The position numbers and the translations under genes are program-made. Positions 44,596-51,866 of a stretch of DNA of 64,000 bases are shown here, in pieces (positions within the stretch are counted from its first letter, which is position 1; each line of letters begins with the position of its first letter). This stretch comes from Acidomonas methanolica (lineage in GTDB: Bacteria; Pseudomonadota; Alphaproteobacteria; Acetobacterales; Acetobacteraceae): positions 1-64,000 of the forward strand of contig NZ_SLZN01000013.1 in assembly GCF_004346035.1 (NCBI RefSeq), written 5' to 3'. Below the pieces are notes generated by a model that saw only the letters and a list, made by a program, of their open reading frames with translations, ran no database searches and was not told the origin of the DNA.

Positions 44596-47500
44596 ATGTT
44601 GAGTACATTAAGCCGCATTGGACATTCCGGATTGTTCGACGCGGCTTTCTATCTCGCGCGCAATCCCGATCTGCGCGCGCTCGGCAGCGGCGTACTGGCC
44701 CATTATCACGAGCATGGCTGGCGCGAGGGGCGCAAACCCAACCCCTATTTCGATCCGCACTGGTATCTGTCGCAAAATCGCGACGTGGTGAGCGACCCGC
44801 TCCTGCATTATATCTGCGAGGGGGAACGGGAGGGACGCCGGCCGATCGCGTGGTTCGACCCCGTCTGGTATTCCGCCCATCACGACGTGCCGGAGGGCAT
44901 GCTCGCCCTCGCCCACTACCTCGCCAACCGGCACAAGCCGGGCATCCGCCCCCTGCCGGAATTCGACGCCGCATTCTACCTGCGCGCCTATCCGGACGTC
45001 GCCGCTTCGGGGCTCGACGCCCTGGAACATTATATGATCCAGGGGTTCCGCGAGGTGCGCAAACCCTTCGAGGCGTTCGATCCGGTCTATTATCGCACGC
45101 AATATCTCCGGCATGCGCCGGATGAGAACCCGCTGCTGCATTACATCGCCCATCGCGACCGGCCCGGAATCCATCCCGCCCGCCCCGCGGCGGAAACGAC
45201 CATTCCGCGCGAGGTCCGCCGCACGACCGCGCCCGGCCCGTTCTTCGAGGAATTCCGCCCGCTCCCCGCCAGTGCGCAGAGGCGGGCGCGGCTGCTGGCC
45301 TATTACCTTCCGCAATTCCACGCCACCCAGGCCAATGACCGCTGGTGGGGCAAGGGCTTCACGGAATGGACGAACGTCGCGCGCGGGATGCCGCGATTCG
45401 CCGGGCATTACCAGCCGCGCATTCCGCGCGACCTCGGGCATTACACGCTGGATTCGCCCGACATTCTCGCGCGGCAGGCGGAGATGGCGCGGCTGGCGGG
45501 GATCGAGGGCTTCGTCTTCTATTTCTACTGGTTCGGCCCCGGTCAGCGCCTGCTCGACGGCCCGCTGGAACTGCTGCTCGCCCATCCGGAGATCAACCTG
45601 CCCTTCTGCCTCATGTGGGCCAATGAAAGCTGGAGCCGGCGATGGGACGGGTCGGAGGAGGACGTCCTCATCGCCCAGGACTATGCGCCGGAACACGAGG
45701 CCGATCTGGTCGCGTGCTTCGCCCGTCATATGCGCGACCCGCGCTACATCCGCGTCGGCGAGCGCCCGCTGCTCATGATCTATCGCCCCGGCAAGCTGCC
45801 GGACGCGCCGGACGCGATCGCCCGCTGGCGGCTGATTTTCCGCGAATCGCACGGCATGGACCCGCTGATCGTCATGGCGCAGGCCTTCGGCGACACCGAC
45901 CCACGCCCCTTCCGCCTCGACGGCGCGGTGGAGTTCCCGCCGCACAAGCTCGTCGAGGACTGCGCCCTCATCACCGAGGAGTTGCACCTGCTCGACGACG
46001 ATTTCACCGCGCAGGTCTACGACTACAAGGACGTCACCGACCAGGCGCTGGCCGCGCCCGCGCCGGACTTCCCGCTGATCCGCACCGTTGCCCCCTCCTG
46101 GGACAATGACGCCCGCCGACAGGGGCGCGGGCTGGTCCTGCACGGCTCGACGCCGCCTCTCTACGAAAACTGGCTGGCGGGGGCGATCGCCGCGGCGCGC
46201 GCCCATCCCTTTCATGGCGACTCGATCGTCTGCATCAATGCCTGGAACGAATGGGCGGAAGGCGCCTATCTCGAACCGGACCTGCATTTCGGCGCCGCCT
46301 ATCTCAACGCCACGGCCCGCGCCTGCACGGGGTTCGAGCAGGCAACGCGCAAGGGCCGCCTGCTCCTGATCGGGCATGACGCCTTTCCCGCCGGCGCGCA
46401 GCAGCTTTTGCTGGCCATCGCGCGGCAGCTTCGCGCGCGCCATGGCCTCCATGTGCTGGTCCTCCTGCTCGAGGACGGGGCGCTGAAAGAGCGGTATCAG
46501 GCGGTCGCGCCGGTCGAGATCCTGCGTCCGGGCACCCAGGAGACGCGACTTCGCCTCCGCTCGCTGGCGCGGGAGGGATTCTCCACCGCGCTCGTCAACA
46601 GCTCCGCCGCCTCCCCGCTCGCCCCCGATCTGGACGCGGCGGGAATCGGCTTCACCCTGCTGATCCATGAACTGCCGAGCCTGCTGCGGCAACGCGACCT
46701 CTGCGCCAGCCTCGCCCGGGCGGAGGCGCTCGCGCGACACGTCGTCGTCCCCGCCGCCGCGATGCTGCCGGGACGACGGGCCGACGCCACGCATGTCCTG
46801 CCGCAAGGGCTCTACACGCCCGTCGCCTTTTCCGCCGCAGACCGGGAGACCCTGCGCGGCGGCCTCGGCCTCAGGCCCGGCGACCGGCTCGTGGTCGGGG
46901 CGGGCTATGCGGACATGCGCAAGGGGTTCGACCTCTTTCTCCAGCTCTGGCAGCGAATCGGCACGCATCGCCCGCCGGGGCGTCAGGCGGCGACCCATTT
47001 CCTCTGGCTCGGCGACATGGACCCCGCCCTGCGCGACGGCCTCGCCCCCGATATCGCCATCGCGCTGGCCTCGGGCTGCTTCCATATGCCCGGACGCGTC
47101 GAGGGAATCGGAGCCTGGCTCTCCGCCGCCGACGCCTTCGCCCTCACATCGCGCGAGGACCCGTTTCCGTCCGTCGTGCTGGAGGCGCTCGCCGCCGGGC
47201 TGCCCTGCTGCGCCTTCGTGGGAAGCGGCGGCGTCGCGACCCTGCTCAGCGCCCTGAATGACGATGCGAACGGCGCGCATGGACTCGCGCCGATGGGCGA
47301 TCTCGGTGAAATGGCGCGGCATCTGACGGCGCTGATGCGGGGCATGCGCGACCGCACCGCCGCCGCGCGCAGGCGACTCGGGCGTCGGATGGCGGCGCGA
47401 TTCGCGTTCGACACCTATGTCGAGCGCCTCATGGCGCTGACCTGCCCGGACATGCCGCGTCTGTCCGTGGTGGTGCCGTCCTACAATTACGCGCGTTATC

Positions 47501-48321
47501 TGGCGGCGCGGCTCGTCTCGATCTTCGCCCAACACATGCCCGTGCTGGAAATCATCGTGCTGGACGACGCCTCCACGGATGGCAGCGTCGCGGTCGCGCG
47601 CGCCACGGCGGCGGAATGGGGCCGCGACATCCGCATTCTGGAAGGACGGCGGAATTCCGGCTCCGTCTTCGCCCAGTGGCGCAAGGCGGCGGAACTCGCG
47701 CGGGGCGACTGGCTCTGGATCGCCGAGGCGGACGACCTCTCGGAGCCCGACCATATGGCGCGGCTCTTCAACGCCCTCGCCCAGACGCCCGGCGCGGTCA
47801 TGGCGTTCTGCGACAGCCGCGCCATCGACGCGGCGGGGGCGACGGTCATGCCGAGCTATCAGGCCTATTACGCCCATGCCGGCGGCGACCGGCTCGCCCG
47901 CGACGGCGCGCATGAGGGGACGGCGTTCCTGCGGGACTGCCTCGGCGCGCGCAACCTGATCCTGAACGCCAGCAGCGCCGTTTTCGACCGCCGCGCGCTG
48001 CTGGCGGCCATGAAGCGATGCCGGGACGACCTGAGCGGGCTGGACGTCGCCGGAGACTGGCGCGTCTATGTCGAGATGCTGGGCGAGCCGGGCGCGCGGC
48101 TGGCCTATGTCGCCGCGCCGCTCAACATCCATCGCCGCCATGACCTTTCGACGAGCGGCCGCCTCTCCCGCGAGGCGCACCTCGCTGAAATCATTGCGGT
48201 TCAGGACAAGGTGTCCCATCTGTTTCCTCAGGACGCCACATTGCATAGCCGGCAGCGCGGCTATCGGCGCGAGCTCATCACGCAATTTGGTTTGACGCCG
48301 CGAATCGTCGTAAACGACTGA
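44596..48321 (+). CDS. Fusion: repeats + WbsX/GH99-like domain + GT4 + GT2
   Basis: A 1241-residue cytoplasmic protein with no signal peptide. Residues 10-200 contain about five repeats of the form FD..(F/W)YL...PDV...L.HY...G..EGR.P. Residues 236-575 are a WbsX domain ([55 protein letters not shown]), as found in O-antigen and rhamnan biosynthesis enzymes. Residues 586-945 are a GT4-like transferase with [19 protein letters not shown]. From about 954 a GT2 domain follows ([34 protein letters not shown]). It probably assembles or trims a surface polysaccharide. GC content is normal for the genome. Confidence 0.88.
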
Positions 48322-48627: not shown

Positions 48628-48888
48628 ATGCGCCGCACCCTCGTGCTCGCCGGTCTTGCCGCTCTTGCATTCGTTACTTCCAGCGCTGCCCCGGCCCGTC
48701 AGCAGACACAACAGAACGTCACGGTCGCCTACCGCCATGGTTGGCCCCAAGAGGAAATCAAGCTTGCCTACCGCCATGGTTGGCCCCAGGAGGAAATCAA
48801 GGTCGCTTACCGCCACGGTTGGCCCCAGGAAGAAATTAAGCTCGCTTACCGCCACGGTTGGCCCCAGGAAGAAATTAAGCTCGCGTGA
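48628..48888 (+). CDS. Secreted tandem 13-residue repeat protein
   Basis: An 86-residue protein. The N-terminus is a classical signal peptide (MRRTLVLAGLAALAFVTSSA) with cleavage near residues 21-24. A short linker (RQQTQQNVTV) is followed by four consecutive copies of AYRHGWPQEEIK[L/V] (residues 34-85) and a final Ala. The third and fourth copies are identical at DNA level; differences among the others are synonymous except Leu/Val at position 13. The repeat makes up over 80% of the mature protein. I know no family like it. It lies between the glycosyltransferase fusion and a large diguanylate cyclase sensor. A processed peptide or a matrix/adhesive protein are both possible. Confidence 0.8.
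   Translation: MRRTLVLAGLAALAFVTSSAAPARQQTQQNVTVAYRHGWPQEEIKLAYRHGWPQEEIKVAYRHGWPQEEIKLAYRHGWPQEEIKLA
48727..48882 (+). repeat. 4 x 39-bp in-frame tandem repeat
   Basis: Four units of 39 bases (13 codons). Units 3 and 4 are identical. Units 1 and 2 differ at three positions, units 2 and 3 at five, almost all at third codon positions. Copy number could change by slippage without breaking the reading frame. There are no spacers, so this is not a CRISPR array. Confidence 0.95.
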
Positions 48889-48968
48889 GATTTCTCACAG
48901 GGATTTTGCCGGCAACATAATTGTGACATAAGTGTCTGCTGGCTTATACTCTCTTTTTTCCTGATGAA

Positions 48969-51866
48969 TTGACCTACGTGCGCAGTCGTAATCTTACTAA
49001 ACCTTTACTGATTGCCATTCTCTTTCTTCTGATTATGCGCAGCGAAAGGTCGTGCGCTCAAAATCTTGTTCCCCGGTACTATGGGGAGGCAGATGGAATT
49101 TCAGAGACAGAGATTCATTTGGCGGACGAGATGAGTGATGGCCGCCTTTTATTGGCTACGCCCAAGGGCTTCAGTCTATGGGACGGTCGGCAAACCGTCC
49201 CCCTTCTGCCATCTTCCGACGATAGTTTTAGTGCCGGTATCGCAGCGATAGAGTTGCCGAATCATCGCCTGTTCGCTGTTTATCCACATTATTTCGTACT
49301 TTACGCGCCCACCAAGTCTGCCACCTCATTTTCCTTTCCCCGTTACCAAAAAATCTGGACGGCTCGTTTACCTAAAGAGATGTCTTTACCCATAGCTGGG
49401 ATACGTCCATTCGTCGCCCCCTGGAAAGACGGCGTTCTATGGTGCAGCCAGAGTAAATGTTTACTCATCGAAATCGGTGAAAAAAATGGGTATCACCTGA
49501 TCACAAACCAGGCCGAAATTGGTCTGCCCGATTCTATCGCCGCGATTTCAGCTCTCTTCTCACGCGACGGTCATTTATGGATCGGCACGCGCAAGGGTGA
49601 AATCTGTCAAGTCGCGGAAGTGAGCAGTGTCTGCATGACTGCGGAAAATGGTCTCTTGAAGGAGCGCATCCGCGCTCTCACGGCGACAGATCCCCAGCAT
49701 GTCTTCGCCCGTACGCTGAATTTCGTCGAGACGGTGGATATGGAACACAACACGGTCCGTATCTCCCATCTTCCTGCTCAATCCCGACATATCGGAACAT
49801 CGATCAATTTCCTCAAACTGATCCCTCGCAAGAAATTCGGTCTTCTGACGCAGGGAAATGACGGGATTTTCTCCCTCAAGCCTGATGGGCGATGGTCGGC
49901 AGCAATATTGTCGGCTGATTCGGCGTCGGTCGATCTGGCGTCCTTCTCACTCGATCCACAGGACAATCTCTGGGTCGGCACGCTGGGCAGCGGTCTCTTC
50001 CGTGCTCTGGGTTATGGCGTTTTCGCGAATTACACCCATGCGGGCGGATTATCCCGCAATACGGTCTGGCAGACCCTCTATGTCGCTGAGGATATGCTGC
50101 TGGTCGCGACGGATAACGGGATCGACAGTCTCAACCCCCTGACATCGAAAATCCGGCATCTACGCGATGCGTCGACCTATACGCTGGCTCGTGACAATGA
50201 CGGAACGATCTGGTCGGCAAGTAATAGTCATGAGATCGTCAATTTCAACCCCATGAATGGCGAGGAAAAATCCTACCCGGTCTCCTATGTCAATGACATC
50301 CTGATCGACCGGACCGGGATCGTCTGGTGTCTTACCGATCTCGGCGTGTATCGTCTCGACCCGACCACGGATACCGCGCCCCAACTCGTTCCCGGATTGG
50401 CACAGCCCTCCCCCGCCGGCGTCATCATGCAGGACGGAACGATCTGGCTGCTCAGCGGCAAGCACCTGTATTTCATGCCCCCGGGATCCGCGCCACACCG
50501 CCTTGAGATTGAATGGTCCCAGCCGGATTTCAATCCTTTGTCGCTTACGGTGAAGAGCGCCTCGGAGATATGGGTGGGCGGAGATGGCGGCGTGATCCGA
50601 GTGATGCATGATGGCAATGTACTGGTCTCCCAGACCTATTTCGATCGTTCGGCTTTGATCGGCGATAGCATCTACAGTGTTTTCGCCGATTCACGCGGCT
50701 GGATCTGGGTCGGCACGAATCGCGGGGTGGCGGTCTTCAACGGCACACGCTGGGCCTATGCCGATTCGTCGGACGGACTCGCCGCCGACAATCTCAGCCA
50801 GAACGCCATCTCCGAGACGCCCGACGGCACGATCTGGATCGGCACCGCCAACGGCCTCACGCATGTCCTCCGCCCCGACACGCTCTTCGTACAACGCCCG
50901 CTTCATCCGTTCGTTGACAGCGTGCAGGCCGGAGGCAAGCCCTATACGGGTGCGAAGCTCCCCTATAGGGATGCGCCGCTCGAAATCCATTTCGGCAGCC
51001 TCGATTTTGCGGACGAACAGCATATCAGCTTCCGCTATCAGCTCAACGACGTCGATCCCGGCTGGGTCGTCACCGGGCAGAAGACCGTCCGCTACCCCGC
51101 CTTGCCGCCCGGCACACATTTTTTCACGCTCATCGCCTTCGATCAGAGGACGCACCGCGAGTCCGCGCCGATCGTCGTCCGGCTCTGCATGGCCTATCCC
51201 ATGTGGAAACGCTGGGAGGCGATCAGCCTCTATATTCTGATGACCCTCATCGTTGGATATGGTCTGTGGAACTGGCGCATGGCCATATCGACCCGGCGCA
51301 TCCGGACGCTCGAACGTCTGGTGTCCGAGCAGACGGCGCAGCTTGCCCAACAATTGCGCACCGACAGCCTGACCGGCCTGTTCAACCGGCGCGCCATCCA
51401 GGAAATACTGGAGAATATCCCCGGCCTCGCGGCCGGAAGCCGCACGATCTATATCGTCCTGATCGATATCGACCATTTCAAGACGATCAACGATATTTAC
51501 GGCCATGTCGCCGGCGATGACGTGCTCGTCGAATTCGGCCGCAGACTCCGGGAGACGATGCTGGACGGAGAGACGATCGGTCGGTACGGCGGCGAGGAGT
51601 TCATGGGGATCATTCTCAGCATGCCGGACCAGATTTTTCCGCGCCTCGCCGCGATTCGTGAGGCGGTCGAGACGAAGCCGTTCTCCATCTCGGGCGCGGA
51701 TGTGCGGGTCACGTTCAGCGCGGGCATCACCGCCCTTCATTTGAACGAAGGCTGGGTCCAGGCCGTGGCGCGCGCCGATTTCGCCCTCTATCGCGCCAAG
51801 AACAACGGCCGCGCCCACACGCTCGCGATGTTCGATACGATCCTCTCCGGCGAACCGGGATCTTGA
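48969..51866 (+). CDS. Periplasmic propeller sensor diguanylate cyclase
   Basis: A 965-residue membrane sensor. It starts with a signal peptide or anchor (PLLIAILFLLIMRSERSCA). Residues about 40-640 carry two-component-propeller repeats (LWIGTRKGEI, LWVGTLGSGLF, IWVGGDGGVI, IWVGTNRGVAVF, IWIGTANGLTHV). A Y_Y_Y domain follows (about 645-740), then one membrane helix (about 751-772) and a GGDEF domain with GGEEF at 874-878, so catalysis of c-di-GMP synthesis is expected. The RxxD inhibitory site is absent at the usual distance. No ATG fits; TTG 48969 or GTG 48978 must start translation. The 5' half is less GC-rich than neighbouring genes. Confidence 0.88.
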   Translation: MTYVRSRNLTKPLLIAILFLLIMRSERSCAQNLVPRYYGEADGISETEIHLADEMSDGRLLLATPKGFSLWDGRQTVPLLPSSDDSFSAGIAAIELPNHRLFAVYPHYFVLYAPTKSATSFSFPRYQKIWTARLPKEMSLPIAGIRPFVAPWKDGVLWCSQSKCLLIEIGEKNGYHLITNQAEIGLPDSIAAISALFSRDGHLWIGTRKGEICQVAEVSSVCMTAENGLLKERIRALTATDPQHVFARTLNFVETVDMEHNTVRISHLPAQSRHIGTSINFLKLIPRKKFGLLTQGNDGIFSLKPDGRWSAAILSADSASVDLASFSLDPQDNLWVGTLGSGLFRALGYGVFANYTHAGGLSRNTVWQTLYVAEDMLLVATDNGIDSLNPLTSKIRHLRDASTYTLARDNDGTIWSASNSHEIVNFNPMNGEEKSYPVSYVNDILIDRTGIVWCLTDLGVYRLDPTTDTAPQLVPGLAQPSPAGVIMQDGTIWLLSGKHLYFMPPGSAPHRLEIEWSQPDFNPLSLTVKSASEIWVGGDGGVIRVMHDGNVLVSQTYFDRSALIGDSIYSVFADSRGWIWVGTNRGVAVFNGTRWAYADSSDGLAADNLSQNAISETPDGTIWIGTANGLTHVLRPDTLFVQRPLHPFVDSVQAGGKPYTGAKLPYRDAPLEIHFGSLDFADEQHISFRYQLNDVDPGWVVTGQKTVRYPALPPGTHFFTLIAFDQRTHRESAPIVVRLCMAYPMWKRWEAISLYILMTLIVGYGLWNWRMAISTRRIRTLERLVSEQTAQLAQQLRTDSLTGLFNRRAIQEILENIPGLAAGSRTIYIVLIDIDHFKTINDIYGHVAGDDVLVEFGRRLRETMLDGETIGRYGGEEFMGIILSMPDQIFPRLAAIREAVETKPFSISGADVRVTFSAGITALHLNEGWVQAVARADFALYRAKNNGRAHTLAMFDTILSGEPGS

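Follow-up and report, generated by a model that had tools for sequence, protein, structure and literature searches.

In the genome of Acidomonas methanolica, a short secreted protein built of repeated peptide units is encoded directly upstream of a propeller-type diguanylate cyclase, and comparisons of genome sequences across the Acetobacteraceae suggest, with a probability that we put at roughly 70%, that such multi-copy periplasmic or secreted peptides are the cognate ligands of these enzymes. Indeed, the two genes change fast together and are swapped as a unit between close species, which makes the peptide probably the private signal of its sensor. The locus lies in a stretch of 64,000 nucleotides (hereafter the window; contig NZ_SLZN01000013.1, positions 1 to 64,000), whose relevant features are the following:

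44596..48321, forward strand: WbsX/GT4/GT2 glycosyltransferase fusion of 1241 residues, 69% identical and syntenic in genome G025
48628..48888, forward strand: peptide precursor gene, 86 aa, with a Sec signal peptide at about residues 1-23, then 4 x AYRHGWPQEEIK[LV]
48727-48765, 48766-48804, 48805-48843 and 48844-48882, forward strand: the four tandem 39-bp (13-aa) units
48921..48950, forward strand: promoter-like sequence just 5' of the sensor gene, TTGTGA-18-TATACT or GTGACA-16-TATACT, recognised by consensus match only
48969..51866, forward strand: sensor diguanylate cyclase, TTG start, 965 aa, beginning 80 bp downstream of the peptide ORF
49056..50903, forward strand: propeller region, residues ~30-645, putatively ligand-binding and hypervariable in peptide-bearing relatives
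51360..51833, forward strand: GGDEF output domain, residues 798-955, with the active-site motif GGEEF

Open reading frames, repeat finding and Pfam searches confirmed the arrangement given in a preliminary description of this DNA, namely an 86-residue signal-peptide protein with four 13-residue copies, 80 bases before a 965-residue sensor. The precursor has a Sec-type N-terminus (MRRTLVLAGLAALAFVTSSAAPA), and its unit, with the core R-H-G-W-P-Q-E-E-I, would read AYRHGWPQEEIKL as a free single peptide. Tandem Repeats Finder placed the 39-bp array (48725-48884, 4.1 copies, score 243) at the top of the window by a wide margin. The copies differ by synonymous changes and one L/V change (pS 0.48, pN 0.016, pN/pS 0.03), and this low pN against a high pS indicates that the array is translated and that its unit is kept by selection at the protein level; across the arrays of the family, the window included, pN/pS ranges from 0.03 to 0.63. 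The block at 48.3-51.9 kb has less G+C than its surroundings (GC3 0.66-0.69 vs 0.80-0.87). No significant sequence match to the repeat was found in 100 relatives, 397 family genomes, genome contigs, viral contigs and plasmids, and family matches with E between 1e-4 and 1 were judged collectively, from their scores and alignments, to be due to chance. The initial remark that the repeat has no homologue was thus correct by sequence, yet analogues in position and design are common.

The sensor comprises, in order, an N-terminal signal or anchor, periplasmic Reg_prop beta-propellers, a Y_Y_Y domain, a transmembrane/coiled-coil segment and a GGDEF domain. It belongs to the Reg_prop/Y_Y_Y sensor family by its Pfam matches to Reg_prop (5e-19) and Y_Y_Y (0.005, under the cut-off and backed by model strands at residues 671-741), the GGDEF match being at 1.4e-33. 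The AlphaFold model (pLDDT 87) has strands to about residue 741, a long transmembrane/coiled-coil helix at 749-797 and then the GGDEF domain, and Foldseek found its fold to resemble the periplasmic parts of BT4663 (4a2l/4a2m; top match), BT3049 and BT4673, with E of about 1e-38 to 1e-31. The periplasmic fold is therefore the same as in these hybrid two-component sensors (HTCS), whereas the latter combine a kinase and response-regulator output with a carbohydrate ligand and a PUL neighbourhood, and the protein described here has a GGDEF output, no recognised PUL genes and an adjoining peptide gene. The ligands known for HTCS propellers are sugars rather than peptides, which tells against a peptide ligand here. 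With a complete domain and a GG[DE]EF active site, the output part qualifies by sequence as a probable diguanylate cyclase: its GGEEF is intact, R-GGEE is invariant across the 41 homologues described below, and an RxxD inhibitory site is absent from the usual position. Promoter-like sites in the region number five against 0.3 expected, which suggests that the sensor gene might be transcribed from a promoter of its own.

The periplasmic region of the sensor was detected in 41 of 397 Acetobacteraceae genomes (one per species; E<=1e-10), and no sensor outside the family reached E<=1e-15 in 289 sampled genomes of the class, the window's own aside. Fifteen of the 41 sensors, window included, are preceded at 75-280 bp by a repeat ORF that is exported or N-terminally truncated, so that the conserved pairing proposed as a check in the preliminary description was indeed found, in the form of clade-specific repeat ORFs. 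A stringent scan, demanding a signal peptide and at least 80% self-identity, was applied to 604 kb around the family sensors and the window and picked out 13 ORFs, equal to 12 loci because two frames overlap at L173, all directly upstream of a propeller-GGDEF gene, within 252 bp, and none elsewhere in these 604 kb; relaxed criteria added L141, L146 and L149, the latter with an array truncated by a contig end. Over 903 kb of other GGDEF loci, the stringent scan detected nothing close to a sensor and a single Ala-rich locus away from one. A small signal-peptide ORF lies no more than 300 bp upstream of 21/41 sensors against 12/165 other genes (Fisher p=9e-10), in an automatic test that overlooks some real arrays and calls signal peptides by a simple script.

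Searches with two of the units retrieved true relatives beside sensors only. The GPRP...C...C unit is present in exactly the nine genomes of genus g125 (presumably Asaia) that carry the sensor, adjacent every time and in 1 or 3-6 copies, the three other matches lying near E=1e-3; similarly, all six HHWP-type units found adjoin a sensor. Repeat genes away from the sensor, which the preliminary description had counted as evidence against the link, were thus not encountered for these two units. Sensors lacking a repeat gene, which it had counted likewise, do exist in the separate clades g42, g31, G047 and G118, where a peptide gene was looked for upstream and none was found. These clades speak against the ligand reading in so far as their propeller would work without a peptide or take its ligand from elsewhere; hypervariability is missing, however, from those of their sensors that were amenable to the test, and this makes the link between peptide and sensor stronger. 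The relatives of the sensor in genus g42 (L136, L137, L143-L145) stand divergent beside a predicted alpha/beta-hydrolase-like gene, with no peptide gene, and G360 carries two such sensors in tandem. The HHWP query also matched D/P/G-rich 'SDSDPND' secreted repeats in genus g29, with no such sensor nearby, and these were set aside as a different thing. At these loci (L224:6439-7909, L225:2237-3241), small exported proteins that carry 'GNSDSDPNDRPGRGRPTT'-type tandem repeats are encoded side by side between genes predicted by eye as alpha/beta-hydrolase and lytic-transglycosylase-like, no propeller sensor being seen nearby; they form an unrelated repeat family. Since exported tandem repeats occur away from sensors, our claim is limited to the paired units and does not cover all repeats. 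Cassettes or sensor genes borne on plasmids, with IS elements nearby, were observed at L205 and L207 (Lichenicola cladoniae) and L206 (Kozakia baliensis), Lichenicola having two near-identical copies, one on each of two plasmids; plasmid location and nearby IS elements suggest mobility.

Each sensor clade has its own unit, and the classes seen besides that of the window include the following:

G025: VASLRQWPAPNA[IT]R, 12 copies (SLRQWPAPNA)
G290: DPKIFHHWP, 4 copies, on the two Lichenicola cladoniae plasmids
G220: LDPAISHHWA, 8 copies
G055: DPNIFHHWP, 7 copies
G258: IDPSSRHEWP, 7 copies
G048: DPSIFHHWP, 3 copies
G110: LKDRPTINA, 7 copies, in an ORF cut by the contig end, its start unseen
G022: RVGNEHRNFRIG, 3 copies
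G009: IRHPSE/D, 6-7 copies
Genus g125, multi-copy: GPRPPxGxxxDPCxxxGxCV, 3-6 copies
L163, L167, L169, L172 and G366: single-copy precursors of ~70 residues with a C-terminal GPRP...C...C unit
Probable single-copy units: ...NIAHHYPG; ...HTFILHPAGPR; ...FLPGMYHNPRSFSES
Probable two-copy form: ...DVVHHFAPDVVHHFP

Peptides and sensors are inherited together. A tree of the 41 sensors, with good support for 26 of its 38 inner branches, assigns one sensor clade apiece to the HHWP, GPRP and R-x-WP classes, groups elsewhere the sensors for which no peptide was found, and makes the window sensor sister to that of G025 (100/100); G025 and G220 each possess two paralogous sensors carrying different peptides. 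Peptide and propeller 1 correlate in a Mantel test (r=0.64, p=0.001; GGDEF r=0.54), a correlation that also reflects common ancestry and alone does not separate interaction from kinship. Between the window and G025, gene order is kept, the helicases are 90% and the glycosyltransferases 69% identical, the sensors share 38%, and the only likeness of the units is an R-x(1-2)-WP core.

Variation is concentrated in the same two genes. The g125 locus is syntenic, with 82-100% identity between species for the best-conserved flanking proteins and 55-74% for the sensor. Over 36 pairs of g125 genomes, mean nucleotide identity is 0.80/0.79 in the flanks, 0.60 in the peptide kilobase, 0.58 in the propeller and 0.72 in the C part, and the dip of peptide and propeller (~59%) below the flanks (~80%) recurs in 36/36 pairs. 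It is nearly absent from peptide-less sensors (flanks 0.85/0.83, propeller 0.83), a small and phylogenetically narrow control set drawn mostly from one genus. In the sister pair G188 and G298, flanks are ~96% and the block inside ~67% identical, with synonymous sites saturated within the sensor. The block has sharp edges: it opens ~0.33 kb upstream of the peptide gene and closes inside the final 40 nt of the sensor gene. As this block holds exactly the peptide plus the sensor, a diverged allele must have replaced the other. The window and G025, compared above, repeat the pattern at larger scale. Such shared hypervariability and allele swapping are also typical of toxin-immunity and kin-recognition loci, and the two-Cys units are like small disulfide peptides in design, hence a reading in which the producer makes the repeats as antimicrobial or receptor-targeting peptides, its sensor perceives this product or gives the response, and conflict drives the variation. 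This is very improbable: immunity-like, modification and transport genes are not linked, the partner is a signalling enzyme, and unit chemistry is very diverse.

The simplest account of joint adjacency, inheritance, hypervariability and replacement is that peptide and sensor are ligand and receptor. The original proposal, in which the sensor next door has the repeat protein as its ligand, thereby gains strong indirect support from clade-specific pairing, co-inheritance and joint allelic exchange. The small protein would be a multi-copy peptide precursor that leaves the cytoplasm through Sec, and its unit, whole or cut to single units in the periplasm or outside, would bind the double propeller of the membrane sensor encoded next to it, altering the activity of the cytoplasmic GGDEF domain and hence c-di-GMP. 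Tandem multiplication may raise ligand dose or avidity, and the existence of single-copy relatives indicates that one unit would suffice. Ligand and propeller would diversify together and cross species as one cassette, giving a private, pherotype-like specificity. Binding, processing, the direction of the effect on c-di-GMP and the place of action, from cell to cell or in the cell's own periplasm, are what we infer from sequence. Cleavage at the Lys-Leu/Val-Ala joints, as first suggested, did not prove general, many units having no Lys or Arg: only the window and G025 have K/R joints, K and R are absent from HHWP units such as IDPNIFHHWPTTGVAE, and a general cleavage joint was rejected, no joint signal being common to the classes. 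Processing at the Lys/Arg joints of the window and G025 is therefore not a general feature.

The main rival is a periplasmic partner without pheromone function. The repeat protein, intact and multivalent, would remain periplasmic and serve the propeller as co-sensor or inhibitor, much like YfiR with YfiN, reporting envelope or metal status, with repeats providing avidity. The precursor has a Sec signal, yet no protease or export gene is linked to the peptide-sensor pairs and no maturation gene was recognised beside those inspected; the sensor domain is itself periplasmic, units containing His, Trp or Cys could bind metals or form disulfides, and the pairing data are equally compatible with such a role. 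Porins pass about 600 Da, so that it is not evident that a 13-mer could leave the periplasm by diffusion. On the other hand, hypervariability and cassette replacement are not expected for a housekeeping co-sensor, 1 to 12 copies with variable spacers suggest independent units, and the precursor model is of low confidence (pLDDT 57, a weak argument as it stems from a single sequence), all of which renders this alternative unlikely.

The glycosyltransferase fusion upstream had led to the proposal of an exopolysaccharide signalling module, and it invites a reading in which the repeat protein is a secreted matrix or adhesion element that binds exopolysaccharide or surfaces while the sensor responds to the polymer instead of the peptide. 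Adhesins and matrix proteins often have tandem repeats, and the glycan-binding propellers of HTCS would fit. The fusion is common to the window and G025 only, however, and was not found at the other fetched sensor loci; in G025, the order glycosyltransferase-peptide-sensor is part of a shared chromosomal synteny. No PilZ effector was found in the window's own genome (G000, rated 100% complete), which encodes five GGDEF domains. Moreover, one-unit precursors of down to ~70 aa are too small for a scaffold, and variation is shared with the propeller. The module claim is thus weak, and a matrix role appears highly improbable.

The ligand-receptor reading finds its closest parallel in pherotype loci (ComQXPA, Agr, ComCDE), in which pheromone and receptor genes are jointly adjacent, inherited, hypervariable and replaced (PMC4408185, PMC5629823). 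Here too, an exported precursor, going by its export signal, is encoded next to its putative receptor, polymorphism is confined to the precursor and the extracytoplasmic sensor part, and alleles are exchanged jointly. Unlike in these systems, the candidate receptor is a propeller diguanylate cyclase and neither a histidine kinase nor a cytoplasmic RRNPP protein, the hosts are Gram-negative, the precursor is multi-copy, and no dedicated maturation enzyme was seen. In the present case, the peptide may act between cells. The precursors recall yeast alpha-factor (PMC5850478) in that one exported ORF carries several identical or near-identical units (1-12 here) in a species-dependent number; they differ in being bacterial, in lacking conserved dibasic or dipeptidyl processing joints and in having units down to ~9 conserved residues. 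Similarly, YfiBNR associates a membrane diguanylate cyclase with a periplasmic protein encoded beside it (PMC3375315); that protein controls the cyclase, as the repeat protein would here, and YfiR is a folded, conserved repressor acting on YfiN, whereas the present partner is a hypervariable short-repeat protein facing a propeller receptor. No peptide-sensing propeller diguanylate cyclases or precursors of this kind were found described in the open-access literature.

Peptide pheromones are known mainly from Gram-positive bacteria, and, to our knowledge, most diguanylate cyclases lack an identified input. A Gram-negative, pherotype-type intercellular system, with multi-copy peptide pheromones, propeller diguanylate cyclases and cassettes swapped between species, is a tentative proposal to which we give slightly less than even odds; if true, kin-specific peptide sensing would set c-di-GMP in one step in bacteria that are used in fermentation and occur in insects and lichens. 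The gene-pair family would supply c-di-GMP sensors with genome-readable, genetically encoded candidate ligands, and would offer, for studies of specificity, a natural set of ligand-receptor pairs that diversify together.
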